The notes: generated from the letters alone by a model not told the origin. 64,000 bases of DNA from Oceanibacterium hippocampi (GCF_900172325.1 NZ_FWFR01000003.1:558001-622000); one strand, 5' to 3'. Shown: positions 45,508 to 51,020, numbered from the stretch's first letter. A program made the numbers and translations.

Positions 45508-45960
45508 CTAGCGCGCCGCCGCCGCACAGGGCGAGGCGGCCGCGCATGGGGCCGCGGCAGCGCAGGGCGACACGGCGGCGCAGGGTGATGCTGCCGCACA
45601 AGGTGACGCAGCCGCACAAGGAGATGCTGCCGCGCATGGCGACGCAGCCGCACAAGGCGAGGCGGCCGCGCATGGCGACGCAGCCGCGCAGGGTGATGCC
45701 GCAGCACAGGGCGATGCGGCGGCGCAGGGTGATGCCGCAGCACAGGGCGATGCGGCGGCGCAGGGTGATGCCGCAGCACAGGGCGATGCGGCGGCGCAGG
45801 GTGACGCAGCGCCACAGGGGGAGCCCGCCGCACAAGGCGCAGCCGACGAAAAGACCGCCGGCACCGGCTTCGGCCGGGTGAAGCTGTAATGATCCACCGC
45901 GACCGCCGCGCCCACCAGGGCCAGGGCTGTCCCGAACAGGAACGTGTTGCGCTCGCTCAT
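45508..45960 (-). CDS. Membrane-anchored Cys-hexad repeat protein (SPCAAA)18, undescribed
   Basis: The 150-residue product starts MSERNTFLFGTALALVGAAV, a helix that serves as signal anchor or signal peptide, then a linker (DHYSFTRPKPVPAVFSSA). From residue 41 to the end it is 18 hexads of the type Ser-Pro-Cys-Ala-Ala-Ala, giving 18 cysteines evenly spaced by six. The start codon is inside the stop of the YeeE/YedE permease gene (ATGA), which argues that it is translated. Ser, Pro and Cys codons differ between hexads (TCA/TCG/TCT, CCC/CCT/CCA, TGC/TGT) while the residues hold, so this frame is under selection. A soft, thiol-rich exported rod could bind metal or sulfane sulfur, or be a precursor for modification; the function is inference. 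Confidence 0.78.
   Translation of the reverse strand: MSERNTFLFGTALALVGAAVAVDHYSFTRPKPVPAVFSSAAPCAAGSPCGAASPCAAASPCAAASPCAAASPCAAASPCAAASPCAAASPCAAASPCAAASPCAAASPCAAASPCAAASPCAAASPCAAVSPCAAAAPCAAASPCAAAAR
45514..45843 (-). repeat. 18-bp tandem coding repeat (18 units)
   Basis: About 18 units of 18 bp encode the Cys hexads. Units 10-15 form three nearly identical 36-bp doublets (about 45686-45795), a sign of recent expansion. Outer units differ more at silent sites. Confidence 0.85.
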
Positions 45961-47171
45961 TTCTTCCTGAACCCGTCGAGGCCGAACAGGGGGCGTATCG
46001 CCACGCCGCCGATGCTGCCGGCGAAGGCCGCCGCGAACCAGAGCCAGCCATGCAGGCTGCCCGAGGCGATGCCGCTGAACAGCGCGCCGATATTGCAGCC
46101 GAAGGCGAGCCTGGCGCCATAGCCCATCAGGACGCCGCCGAGGGCGGCCGCGAGGAACGAGGCGAACGGCACCTTCACCTTCGGCGCGAACTTGCCGGCG
46201 AGCGCCGCCGCGAGGGCCGCGCCGAGGATGATGCCGAAGTTCATCACCGAGGTGACGTCGGCGAGCACGCTCGATCCGAGTGCCCTGGCCGGGCCCGGCC
46301 AGGTCCAGAATGCCCAGGTCTCGACCGGCACGCCCATGGCCTGGATCGCCTTGGCGCCCCAAAGGCCGAAGCCGAAGGTCACAGACCAGGGATGGCCGGC
46401 AATGAGCAGGGTCGCGACGTTGAGGGCGGCGAGCGCCAGCCCCGCGCCGACCAGCGGCCATGGACCGTGCAGCATCCGGGCAAGACCGCGACGCGGCGCC
46501 GGCTTGAGCGTCTCGAGCCCGCCATGGGCGCGACGCTCGATCAGGATGGTCACGACGCTTACCGCTGCCAGGCCGGCAAGCGTGACGATGACGCCGAAGG
46601 TCGCGCCGAACGTCCGGCCAAGACTGATTTCCGGCAACGAGGGCTGAGTGAGCCACCAGGGAAGATGCGCCGAGCCCAGCACCGCGCCGGCGATGAAGAA
46701 GATCAGCGTGACCAGCATGCGGGCGCTGCCGCCGCCGACGGTGAACAGGGTGCCCGAGCCGCAACCGCCGCCGAGCTGCATGCCGATCCCGAACATCGCG
46801 GCCCCGACCAGCACCGAGACGCCAACCGGCGCCAGCGCGCCGGCCAGCGGCTGGCCGTTGACGCTGCCCAGCGCGAGCAGCGGGATGAAGGCGACGGTCG
46901 CGGCCGCGATCATCAGCATCTGGGCGCGGATCGCGCGGCCCCGCCGCTCGACGACGAAGCGCCGCCAGCCGCCGGTGAAGCCGAACGAGCCGTGGTAGAG
47001 CGCCAGTCCCAGCAGGCTGCCGATGAGGAACAGCCCGGCCTGGCGGGCGTCGATCGCCTCGCCGATCGCGAGCGCCCCGAGGAGAAGAGTCAGACCGGCG
47101 ACAATGACCGGGGCCTTGTCGGGATAGACAGGGGCAACCGGGGTTGCCGCGGTGGCGTTGCTCAAGGTCAT
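45957..47171 (-). CDS. YeeE/YedE-family (TsuA-like) sulfur-compound permease
   Basis: The 404-residue membrane protein has about ten helices and the two characteristic Cys motifs: GMQLGGGCGSGTLFTVGGGS (near residue 135) and ARLAFGCNIGALFSGIASGS (near residue 360). In TsuA such cysteines pass thiosulfate through the membrane by short-lived contacts. The gene is between the rhodanese gene (102 bases upstream) and the Cys-repeat gene (4-base overlap), so the three are likely one sulfur-related transcript. The ligand is inferred from family; thiosulfate, selenium or other sulfur species are possible. Confidence 0.9.
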   Translation of the reverse strand: MTLSNATAATPVAPVYPDKAPVIVAGLTLLLGALAIGEAIDARQAGLFLIGSLLGLALYHGSFGFTGGWRRFVVERRGRAIRAQMLMIAAATVAFIPLLALGSVNGQPLAGALAPVGVSVLVGAAMFGIGMQLGGGCGSGTLFTVGGGSARMLVTLIFFIAGAVLGSAHLPWWLTQPSLPEISLGRTFGATFGVIVTLAGLAAVSVVTILIERRAHGGLETLKPAPRRGLARMLHGPWPLVGAGLALAALNVATLLIAGHPWSVTFGFGLWGAKAIQAMGVPVETWAFWTWPGPARALGSSVLADVTSVMNFGIILGAALAAALAGKFAPKVKVPFASFLAAALGGVLMGYGARLAFGCNIGALFSGIASGSLHGWLWFAAAFAGSIGGVAIRPLFGLDGFRKK

Positions 47172-47273
47172 TTCATCATGGTCGCAGAAACGGGGCCGCA
47201 GGCGGCCGGGTCAGTTCGAGGGAGGATGCCCGACACCCGGCCGGGCACCCTCCGCTCACGTTCGGATCGGCGA

Positions 47274-48194
47274 TCAGGAACCGGGCTCGACCGGGCGGGC
47301 CGGATCGGCGGTCCATTCGGCCATCGAACCATCATACATCTTGGTCCGCTTGTTGCCCTGGACCTCGCTCAGGCCGAACCAGATCACCGAAGCCCAGTGG
47401 CCGGTATTGCAGAACGCGATATTCTCCTTGTCGGCGTCGACATCCACGCCCTTGGCGAGGCTGGCAACCGTCTCCTTCGAGACGAAGCTCGCGTTCTCGG
47501 CGTCGTAGAGCTTGGCATTCTCGATATTGACCGCGCTCGGGATGGTACCGGCGACGCGGGCCACCGGGCTCTTGCTCTCGCCCTTGTACTGCGCGGCCGG
47601 ACGACCGTCGATCAGCCGGGTGCCGTCGGCACGGGCCTTCTCGACATCGGCGGCGGTGGCCAGGAGTTCACTGCGGAGGGTCCCGGTGAAGCTGGCGGCC
47701 ACGGGCTTGACCGCGTCGGTCGAGACCTCGCCGCCGGCGGCGACCCAGGCGCGCTCGCCGCCGTTCAGGATCGACACGGCATCATGTCCGAGCACCTTGA
47801 AGGTCCAGTAGATGCGGGTCGCGATACCGAACTCGGACGAATTGGTCCCGTTCGGCACGATGACGACATGGCTGTCGTTGCTTACGCCGAGGGAACCGAT
47901 GACCTTCTCGATCTGCTCAACCGGCGGCAGCATGCCGGGGACGCCGTTCACATTGGCGCGCCAGCCGGTGGTCGAATAGGGCGCGCTGATCGCACCCGGG
48001 ACATGGCCCTTGTCATAAGGGTTGCCGTCATTGGCCGCGTCGCGGACGTCGAGCACGACGAGGCTCTCGTTGCCGAGATGGGACTTGAGCCAGGCAGCGT
48101 CGACGAGCGGCTGGTCGGTCAGTCGTTCGGCCTGGGCGGCGCCGGCAATGGCGAGGCCGGCGGCAAGCACGGCCGCGAGAAGAGGAGTGCGCAT
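47274..48194 (-). CDS. Exported two-domain rhodanese (sulfurtransferase)
   Basis: The 306-residue product has a signal peptide (MRTPLLAAVLAAGLAIAGAA, cut after QA) and two rhodanese domains. The first begins LVVLDVRDAANDGNPYDKGH; the second ends with the active Cys in IAFCNTGHWASVIWFGLSEV. It should transfer sulfur from thiosulfate or a persulfide in the periplasm. CNTGHW replaces the common CRxGxR loop and may change the acceptor. It is the first gene of the sulfur operon; the upstream spacer is A/T-richer. Confidence 0.92.
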   Translation of the reverse strand: MRTPLLAAVLAAGLAIAGAAQAERLTDQPLVDAAWLKSHLGNESLVVLDVRDAANDGNPYDKGHVPGAISAPYSTTGWRANVNGVPGMLPPVEQIEKVIGSLGVSNDSHVVIVPNGTNSSEFGIATRIYWTFKVLGHDAVSILNGGERAWVAAGGEVSTDAVKPVAASFTGTLRSELLATAADVEKARADGTRLIDGRPAAQYKGESKSPVARVAGTIPSAVNIENAKLYDAENASFVSKETVASLAKGVDVDADKENIAFCNTGHWASVIWFGLSEVQGNKRTKMYDGSMAEWTADPARPVEPGS

Positions 48195-48863
48195 TTATTA
48201 CCCCATTTAATAGTGTGAAACAGAAAATTCAACTCGACGACAATGTGGTGAAATGCTGTCCGAAAAGCAAATGCAGGATAATCGTTGTATTTCATAACAG
48301 CCATGCGGAATCGACGGCGAGATGACCCGGCGTGCAGGCTCGGCAGGCTGCCGCCCATCGGAGAAGCACGGACCGGTCACGGGGAATAGGGGCATTGTCG
48401 GAGGGGCCGCGCCAGAGCCCCGTCCGGGCCAGGGCTGCGGCCAAGGCAACGGGGCGGAGTGGTGGTGCTTGCAGTCACGAGCGAACCCGTCTCTGCCGCT
48501 ACCAGCGCGTTAACAGGGAAAATACAGGGAATTCACCGCCATTTTAAGCGTGATCGCACTCAATCGCCCGAAATACACGCACATTTTCAACGACATGGAG
48601 GAATTTCCCTGCAGGATGGAACAGGGAATTCGACTCAAGGGATCAGGGAGTTCGGTGGCGAATAACAGGGAACACCAGGGCAGGATCAGAGTTTGAGTTC
48701 GGGGACGCCGCCCGTCCCTCGACGGGACGAGCGGTGTCTCCTGCGTTCGCAATCCTAAGTTCCTGCGGCGCGGAGATCCGTTACAAATTGCTATGACCGG
48801 TGTTTCTTGGTGGGATCGGATAATCACGTCACGGCATAGGACAATGGCCGGCAAGATAGGCTC
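48195..48863. other. 669-bp spacer with CAGGGAA-type repeats
   Basis: I see no gene. A cluster of CAGGGAA (48514, 48525, 48622, 48666), a variant CAGGGAG (48644) and an inverted TTCCCTG (48605) lie within 160 bp. Such clusters are common beside integrated elements. The right border coincides with a truncated gene. Confidence 0.5.
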
Positions 48864-49802: not shown

Positions 49803-51020
49803 TGACCTTGCCCCCCTGAACCCCCACCGATTTGAAGTTAGGGTCTGCTTCCGATTGAAGGAATTAGACGATGAAGCGCAGCAGGTTCACGGAAAAACAG
49901 ATCATCGGGATATTGAAGGAGCATCAGGTAGGTCTGTCTGCGACTGATCTTTGCCGGAAGCATGGCATCAGCGATGCGACGTTTTACAACTGGCGTTCAA
50001 AGTATGGCGGTATGGACGTGTCGGATGCGAAGAAGCTGAAGGCGCTGGAGGCAGAGAACGCGAAGCTGAAGAAGCTTCTCGCTGAATCGGTAATGGATGT
50101 GTCTACGCTGAAAGAGATACTCGGAAAAAAACTTCTGCCGCCGGGTTCGACGAGAAGCGCCGTGTACTGGGCGATCGACGACAAGGGCTACTCGCAGCGG
50201 CGGGCCTGTTCCCTGGTGGGGCTGGACCGGAAGACCTGCCGCTATGCATCGAGACGGCCTGCGGATGAGGCGATCCGCCCGCGACTGCGGGAGCTGGCGT
50301 CAGAGCGCCGCCGGTTCGGCTATCGCCGGCTGCATATCCTGCTCCGGCGCGAGGGGATAAAGGTGAACCACAAGAAGCTGTAGCGGCTCTACAAAGAGGA
50401 GCGCCTGACTGTGAGGAAGCGCGGCGGGCGCAAACGGGCGCTGGGCACGCGGGCGCCGATGGCGACCCCGCAGGGTTCGAACCAGCGCTGGTCTCTCGAC
50501 CTCGACTCGGATTCCCTAGTCGACGGCCGGCGGTTCCATATTCAATGCGTGATCGACGACTTCTTACGCGAATGCCTGGCAATGGTGGCGGACAACTCGA
50601 TCTCGGGCGTCCGTGTTGCGCGGGAACTTGACCGTATCGCCTCCCTGCGCGGCTATCCCGACCAGGTGGTCAGCGACAACGGCACCGAGTTGACGTCGAA
50701 CGCCATGCTGCAATGGCAGGAAGAGCGTGGTGTCGGCTGGCATTACATCGCGCGGGGCAAGCCGATGCAGAACGGCTTCGTCGAGTCCTTCAACGGTCGT
50801 CTGCGGGCCGAGTGTCTGAACGCCCACTGGTTCCTGAGCCTTGCGGACGCAACGGAAAAGCTGGAGGCTTGGCGTAGAGACTACAATGAGGAACGGCCAC
50901 ACAGCGCGATCGGCAACAAGGTCCCGGCAGCGCTTATGAAATCAGCACGCGCAGCCAGCCCGTGGCGCTGAAACAAGGCGGAAAACTCTAACGCCCGCCG
51001 AGGGTAGGTTGGGGAGCGCA
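49803..51020 (+). mobile_element. IS3-family (IS51/IS407-like) insertion sequence, degenerate
   Basis: The element begins near TGACCTTGCCCCCCTGAACC and contains one IS3 transposase reading frame. The ends were placed approximately, from the break of the EamA gene and the GGTTGGGGAG motif near 51018. A related copy in the opposite orientation is at 59461-60274. Confidence 0.75.
49871..50971 (+). pseudogene. IS3-family transposase with an in-frame TAG
   Basis: The frame starts MKRSRFTEKQIIGILKEHQV (orfA-like helix-turn-helix and leucine zipper). It continues in the same frame into the orfB part ([22 protein letters not shown]) and the DDE core ([32 protein letters not shown]). A TAG at 50381-50383 replaces the tyrosine of KKLYRLY seen in the other IS3 copy, splitting the gene into 170 and 187 residues. 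orfA and orfB normally overlap with a frameshift, so their fusion here is also unusual. Confidence 0.85.

Follow-up and report, generated by a model that had tools for sequence, protein, structure and literature searches.

Rhodaneses transfer sulfane sulfur. SoxT proteins, which are relatives of YeeE, import sulfur and require conserved cysteines, while the delivery of sulfur to YeeE-type importers and its passage through them have been described as poorly understood (PMC11582611). Here we describe a locus in Oceanibacterium hippocampi that places an exported rhodanese, a permease of the YeeE/YedE family and a small cysteine-rich repeat protein, which we term xPC, side by side. The locus lies in a stretch of 64,000 nucleotides (GCF_900172325.1, NZ_FWFR01000003.1:558001-622000), hereafter the window, and positions are counted from its first letter. 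Rhodanese, permease and xPC are co-encoded and co-inherited, usually together with a gene of the family DUF6969, and this combination recurs in many bacteria from soils and plants. It hints at an undescribed means by which reactive sulfur is carried or buffered on the outer side of the cell membrane. A sequence-only reading of the same DNA had recognized a sulfur operon of three genes; the present analysis adds DUF6969 as a fourth gene, a broader pairing of Pro-Cys proteins with DUF6969, and a sox-linked version of the module in another class.

The three genes lie on the minus strand in the order rhodanese, permease and xPC, and the xPC start codon lies inside the permease stop, the two genes sharing 4 nt (45957-45960, minus strand; AAGAAATGAGC). 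Both the arrangement and this ATGA coupling had been called correctly by the sequence-only reading. That reading also described the product of the third gene (45508-45960, minus strand) as a 150-residue protein with 18 Cys in 18 hexads, and the count is exact: an N-terminus of the form MSERNTFLFG...AVAVDHY is followed by 18 SPCAAA-type Pro-Cys hexads, consecutive in a single run. The hexads are encoded by a tandem array (45518-45839, minus strand; Tandem Repeats Finder) of 18-bp units with a 36-bp higher-order period, while composition-matched shuffles of the DNA yielded a maximum of 2 consecutive Pro-Cys hexads. The 18 repeat units comprise 14 distinct DNA sequences that encode almost one peptide. 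Across the units the proportion of synonymous differences (pS) is 0.72, that of nonsynonymous differences (pN) is 0.042 and dN/dS is approximately 0.02, which puts a figure on the selection previously argued from silent-site variation. Because codon position 3 is saturated while the first two positions hardly change, the minus-strand frame of the array is the frame under selection and is maintained as protein. The shuffles and the codon-position pattern rule out a chance or antisense open reading frame (ORF). The 111-aa ORF that crosses the array on the plus strand mirrors the repeat.

A conserved hydrophobic segment of approximately residues 1-22 opens the protein (45895-45960, minus strand) and ends in an AxA site before xDH, compatible with either a signal peptide or a signal anchor. 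AlphaFold2 modelled residues 2-28 as a confident N-terminal helix and the repeats as disordered, so the helix proposed earlier stands. Its anchoring in the membrane does not stand as proposed: because the hydrophobic segment is succeeded by an AxA site in 21/21 homologues compared (AxAxD[HQ], with His in 19/21), a cleaved signal peptide and a membrane anchor appear equally possible. Comparison of xPC with Pfam and NCBIfam returned no family match, including no bufferin model, no PF16694 and no NF038108, in line with the earlier statement that it belongs to no named family. A literature search on the repeat strings, DUF6969 and Pro-Cys repeats found no relevant paper in the library consulted.

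Orthologues were sought by a pattern scan for four consecutive [S/T/A/P]PCA hexads in one genome per species (84,980 species). The scan returned at least 118 stretches and represents a sample rather than a census; the majority of the stretches were in another reading frame or were unrelated sequence of low complexity. Among the matches listed, 12/12 with the xPC N-terminus directly follow a permease 71-82% identical to that of the window, and a rhodanese lies upstream of those permeases wherever the locus extends that far; the adjacency that had been put forward for checking in other genomes is therefore conserved. The hosts are Aminobacter (2), Mesorhizobium soli, Aliihoeflea (2) and Devosia (7). 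In 11/12 of these named orthologues the xPC ATG overlaps the permease stop, as it also does in Sinorhizobium; the twelfth, from D. algicola, has an unclear start and possibly a frameshift. Alignment revealed a common N-terminus, RNTxLFGxA...A.A.D.

In a class sample of 385 genomes, the permeases closest to that of the window (approximately 61-72% identity) are followed by the same N-terminus carrying other repeats: NPCAA/NPCGA pentads with 28 Cys (genome G289), NPCAAGAAV-type nonads (G403 and G239), SPCAPA units (G040), APCGxxPVAA units (G270) and a protein with 3 Cys (G337). In G337 (contig C88; loci L202/L232) the permease is broken by stop codons while xPC and DUF6969 are open. No xPC gene follows any permease of less than about 60% identity among the matches listed. 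The operon is also present in S. medicae, in Neorhizobium and, on pSymB, in S. meliloti strains that include 1021 and Rm41. In these hosts xPC has 3-7 Cys, with a Pro-rich tail in Sinorhizobium, and the full four-gene set is found on pSymB of S. meliloti 1021, at about 1088140-1091328 of NC_003078.1. The difference between 1021 and two strains of the S. meliloti group amounts to exactly one 18-bp unit. Frameshifts in the Pro-codon tract of the xPC gene of S. meliloti ABS7 and AK57 (CP073680.1 and CP130047.1) may be sequencing errors or real. The repeat gene is unannotated in the examined Sinorhizobium records that list genes at the locus. Orthologues share the N-terminus [RK]N[TS]xLFG...AxAxD[HQ], the Pro-Cys units and the coupling to the permease, all of which the window protein displays. 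Because Pro-Cys spacing (5, 6 or 9 residues) and Cys number (3-28) vary across orthologues, the hexad spacing noted by the sequence-only reading is not the functional constant, and the hexad period is ruled out as the functional unit. The constant features are the N-terminus and the Pro-Cys unit, with spacing and Cys dose free to vary.

The gene of about 200 aa found directly downstream of xPC in Mesorhizobium, Devosia and others belongs to DUF6969 (PF22308, E 4e-71), a family for which we know of no function. All 12 named genomes carry exactly one DUF6969, located by coordinates directly after the repeat gene; the neighbours share 1 nt in several Devosia, and DUF6969 has no apparent signal peptide. 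Over 94 DUF6969 sequences His60, His62, His73, His75, His89, Asp50, Asn108 and Arg162 (M. soli numbering) are invariant, and the protein appears to carry a candidate metal site. Its structure model is good (pTM 0.85); searches of the PDB gave nothing notable, with a best Foldseek E of 0.5, a best VIA-align Z of 3.4 and no sequence match to solved structures, although this does not prove that the fold is new. The sole DUF6969 of the window's genome (G000:C7:178796-179401) lies on the same contig about 380 kb before the window and is not adjacent to xPC. At that locus (G000:C7 ~178.7-181.0 kb; L250:6734-9041) it stands beside an exported sulfatase-like gene of the formylglycine-generating enzyme (FGE) type and a cytochrome c gene, with no Pro-Cys repeat gene nearby.

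Pfam assignments for the other two genes bear out the sulfur operon proposed earlier. The exported two-domain rhodanese, a sulfurtransferase of 306 aa (47274-48194, minus strand; PF00581, E 1.4e-24), has Cys262 as its sole cysteine, in the loop CNTGHWAS, and the loop CNTGH[WL]AS with Cys262 is retained in all 14 operon rhodaneses compared. Its nearest solved relatives are thiosulfate sulfurtransferases, and its rhodanese domains and active-site Cys are those of a rhodanese/thiosulfate sulfurtransferase. The permease (45957-47171, minus strand; 404 aa) is a member of the YeeE/YedE superfamily (PF04143, E 4.4e-75; 253.5 bits against a gathering threshold of 27). It contains exactly two Cys (137 and 359), which align to Cys91 and Cys293 of TsuA (6leo), are retained in all operon permeases covering the site, and are reportedly indispensable in TsuA. 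Where TsuA has its first Cys, the window permease instead reads HGSFGF and the operon orthologues HASFGF or similar, and the scores of the window permease fall far below the TsuA equivalog and exception cut-offs (NF052577, 71.4 vs 400 bits; NF041049, 58.4 vs 645 bits). The permease was called TsuA-type by the sequence-only reading; the family assignment holds, while these cut-offs and the presence of only two of the three transport cysteines rule out TsuA identity.

Loci from a phylum-wide sample extend the association. L391 and L392, from two genomes of another class, provide an independent replicate, with the gene order PF04143 C-half, PF04143 N-half, 77-aa secreted NPC peptide, DUF6969, SseA-like rhodanese and ArsR, the last with BigR as its best NCBIfam match, below the cut-off. 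In L391 SoxC (604 bits, cut-off 420) is encoded about 2.5 kb beyond the ArsR-containing run, and a SoxY gene lies about 7 kb from DUF6969. At a further locus, L400, permease, xPC, DUF6969 and rhodanese form one unbroken run. The association of permease, Pro-Cys protein, DUF6969 and rhodanese thus spans classes, and at L391, at least, genes of sulfur oxidation are neighbours; the sulfur context of the module is well supported.

The pairing of Pro-Cys proteins with DUF6969 reaches beyond the operon. In the class sample DUF6969 was detected in 13/13 genomes with genuine in-frame Pro-Cys hexads versus 90/385 overall (p=3e-9), and genomes with artefact hexad matches showed the background frequency (3/14); genuine and artefact matches were sorted by eye. 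Genomes with the permease are likewise enriched in DUF6969 (33/45, p=3e-14); both p-values ignore kinship of the genomes. Among 80 DUF6969 neighbourhoods, 37 hold at least 5 Pro-Cys units in a run within about 6 kb, as compared to 0/11 comparison loci and 0/4 window tiles, and a phylum-wide sample supplied 12 new DUF6969 loci, 10 of which have at least 4 Pro-Cys units nearby. Many of the Pro-Cys proteins near DUF6969 are of an NPCAAK type that ends in a cytochrome P460 domain (PF16694) and that seems not to have been described as a repeat family. NPCAAK proteins with P460-like domains were noted at L067, L068, L069, L072, L073, L075, L076, L078, L080 and L081, in many cases accompanied by DUF6969 and by another, small NPC-repeat peptide. 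FGE-like genes (29/80) and cytochrome c genes (27/80) recur in the DUF6969 loci, while a census of neighbour families at the 37 Pro-Cys/DUF6969 loci found no dominant copper or sulfur family. Downstream of a distant YeeE permease, six loci (L008, L009, L011, L014, L015 and L019) encode an exported protein (PQVIELTQVPCQFLD...GEYLFSCP) with a length of about 164 aa. This protein is cupredoxin-like by eye, the one tested has no Pfam match, and NPC-repeat genes come next at several of these loci.

Our preferred reading, to which we give slightly less than an even chance, is that the operon encodes a module that handles sulfane sulfur at the inner membrane, in which xPC is a periplasmic thiol-rich carrier or buffer and DUF6969 is its cytosolic partner. 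For the chemistry of the carrier and for the part that DUF6969 plays we infer the following. In the periplasm the rhodanese would load sulfane sulfur drawn from thiosulfate or polysulfide onto the flexible Pro-Cys tail; the tail, as a multi-thiol carrier or buffer, would offer this sulfur at the mouth of the permease, which would move it inwards. Cytosolic DUF6969 would prepare the Pro-Cys protein before Sec export through modification, through metal or sulfur loading, or by keeping the thiols reduced; the window's genome encodes this partner elsewhere. Several observations weigh against such a scheme. The drop to 3-4 Cys in Sinorhizobium and G337 is awkward for a high-capacity buffer, and the evidence for the thiol state, sulfur loading and expression of xPC is indirect. 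A search for SoxY in 19 genomes found it in 8, which confirms that the gene is within reach of the search, but neither in the window's genome nor in 10/18 others; a strict link of the module to sox lithotrophy can therefore be dismissed. Moreover, because DUF6969 and Pro-Cys proteins also occur without the permease or an SseA-type rhodanese, beside P460, FGE-like and cytochrome c genes, their role may be wider than sulfur import.

The alternative that survives best, unlikely though by no means negligible, is that xPC is a bufferin-like secreted Cys-rich periplasmic buffer of a thiophilic, copper-like metal, with DUF6969 in the place of MNIO. Cleavage after the conserved AxA would then leave an X-X-His N-terminus, a Cu/Ni-binding ATCUN motif, and the AxAxDH sequence is conserved, with His in 19/21. 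The disordered exported tail offers many soft ligands, and the FGE-like and cytochrome c genes that recur by DUF6969 recall a report of fusions between bufferin, cytochrome c and FGE in which the FGE enzymes are cuproenzymes (PMC12452194). Against a metal role, copper genes are not among the commonest families near the Pro-Cys/DUF6969 loci, and sulfur genes are present in the window operon and in the sox-linked version. Furthermore, the genome already possesses an MNIO beside a DUF2282-like Cys-containing ORF. This MNIO (PF05114; G000:C7:511939, ~511.5-512.8 kb; L360:1049-2367) is the only one in the genome and lies outside the window, and with its neighbour it probably forms a classical bufferin cluster. 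An MNIO partnership with xPC is ruled out, since the enzyme is far away beside the DUF2282-like ORF. Because of the sox-linked locus in the other class, the balance tips to sulfur over metal.

A second alternative, which can be true together with either the sulfur or the metal reading and which we consider distinctly unlikely as an account in its own right, takes DUF6969 as a metalloenzyme that would modify the Pro-Cys units before export, in the manner of a ribosomally synthesized and post-translationally modified peptide (RiPP), the modified protein then being active for sulfur or metal. The constancy of DUF6969 as partner of Pro-Cys proteins across contexts, its five invariant His and invariant Asp, Asn and Arg over 94 sequences, its lack of an apparent signal peptide and its 1-nt overlap with the xPC gene in Devosia would all suit such an enzyme, and the G289 variant weakly matches NF038108, a RiPP model with Cys at every fifth residue, below its cut-off. 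However, DUF6969 matches no known enzyme fold by Foldseek, VIA-align or sequence, and none of the transporter or protease genes typical of RiPPs was noted. That the N-terminus and flexible Ala/Pro tail of xPC serve as a permease accessory or tether, with the Cys units a tolerated repeat expansion and no sulfur or metal chemistry, is very improbable: tail length and Cys number do vary widely and the Sinorhizobium and Aliihoeflea tails are largely Pro-rich, but Pro and Cys are kept while third codon positions saturate, every homologue seen has at least 3 Cys, and Pro-Cys units are common to otherwise unrelated proteins adjoining DUF6969.

A broader proposal, doubtful on balance, would be that Pro-Cys proteins and DUF6969 constitute an undescribed two-component system of Pseudomonadota. 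In it DUF6969, a cytosolic His-cluster enzyme distinct from MNIO and radical-SAM enzymes, would modify or load secreted Pro-Cys units, serving sulfane-sulfur import where a YeeE permease and a rhodanese are present and other redox tasks where the units are fused to cytochrome P460.

Because a gap of 28 nt separates the xPC gene from a convergent SpoIIAA-like gene and about 670 nt upstream of the rhodanese hold no convincing gene, the surroundings suggest an operon of three genes in the window's genome. Promoter and terminator scans found nothing, and a search for a regulatory motif shared upstream of the rhodanese found only short unshared dyads. Five copies of CAGGGAA (four plus, one minus; 48514-48672) in the gene-poor stretch upstream of the rhodanese look like mobile-element debris. 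Approximately 1.7 kb upstream of the rhodanese gene are two ORFs (49871-50971, plus strand) that by reading alone resemble orfA and orfB of an IS3-type transposase. Because the window permease shares about 80% identity with proteins of Aminobacter and Mesorhizobium and only about 45% with those of its own taxonomic family, its sequence suggests that the operon was acquired by horizontal transfer or that the permease is a different paralogue.

The module thus extends YeeE-type sulfur import, which is known, by an undescribed carrier candidate and its partner. A conserved, unnamed multi-thiol protein beside the importer, together with DUF6969, makes the sulfur delivery step testable, and through the DUF6969 link both PF22308 and the NPC-repeat P460 proteins, which are widespread, gain a first clue to their function. 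Comparison with described systems places the locus close to several of them. The SoxT/TsuA importers share PF04143 with the window permease, which keeps the equivalents of TsuA Cys91 and Cys293; it differs from TsuA in scoring below the equivalog cut-offs, in lacking the first TsuA Cys and in its coupling to the xPC gene. The other-class loci resemble the PmpA/PmpB split YeeE and BigR-type operons in having a split permease, a rhodanese and an ArsR, and depart from them by adding a Pro-Cys peptide and DUF6969 and by an ArsR below the BigR cut-off. CefA, the RiPP with Cys at every fifth residue (NF038108), has a similarly regular Cys spacing, and the G289 pentad variant reaches 16.7 bits against a cut-off of 30, whereas the window xPC gives no match. 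The NPC-repeat cytochrome P460 proteins of Alphaproteobacteria likewise combine Pro-Cys repeats with a DUF6969 neighbour, some beside a YeeE-type permease, and differ by a C-terminal P460 domain (PF16694) that is absent from the window xPC. Finally, like the bufferins and other MNIO-modified precursors, xPC is small, exported and rich in Cys and has a candidate partner in the cytosol, and the FGE and cytochrome c genes of bufferin systems also recur beside DUF6969 (PMC12452194); in contrast to the bufferins, the xPC operon has no MNIO gene and no DUF2282 match, its partner is DUF6969, and it carries sulfur genes.

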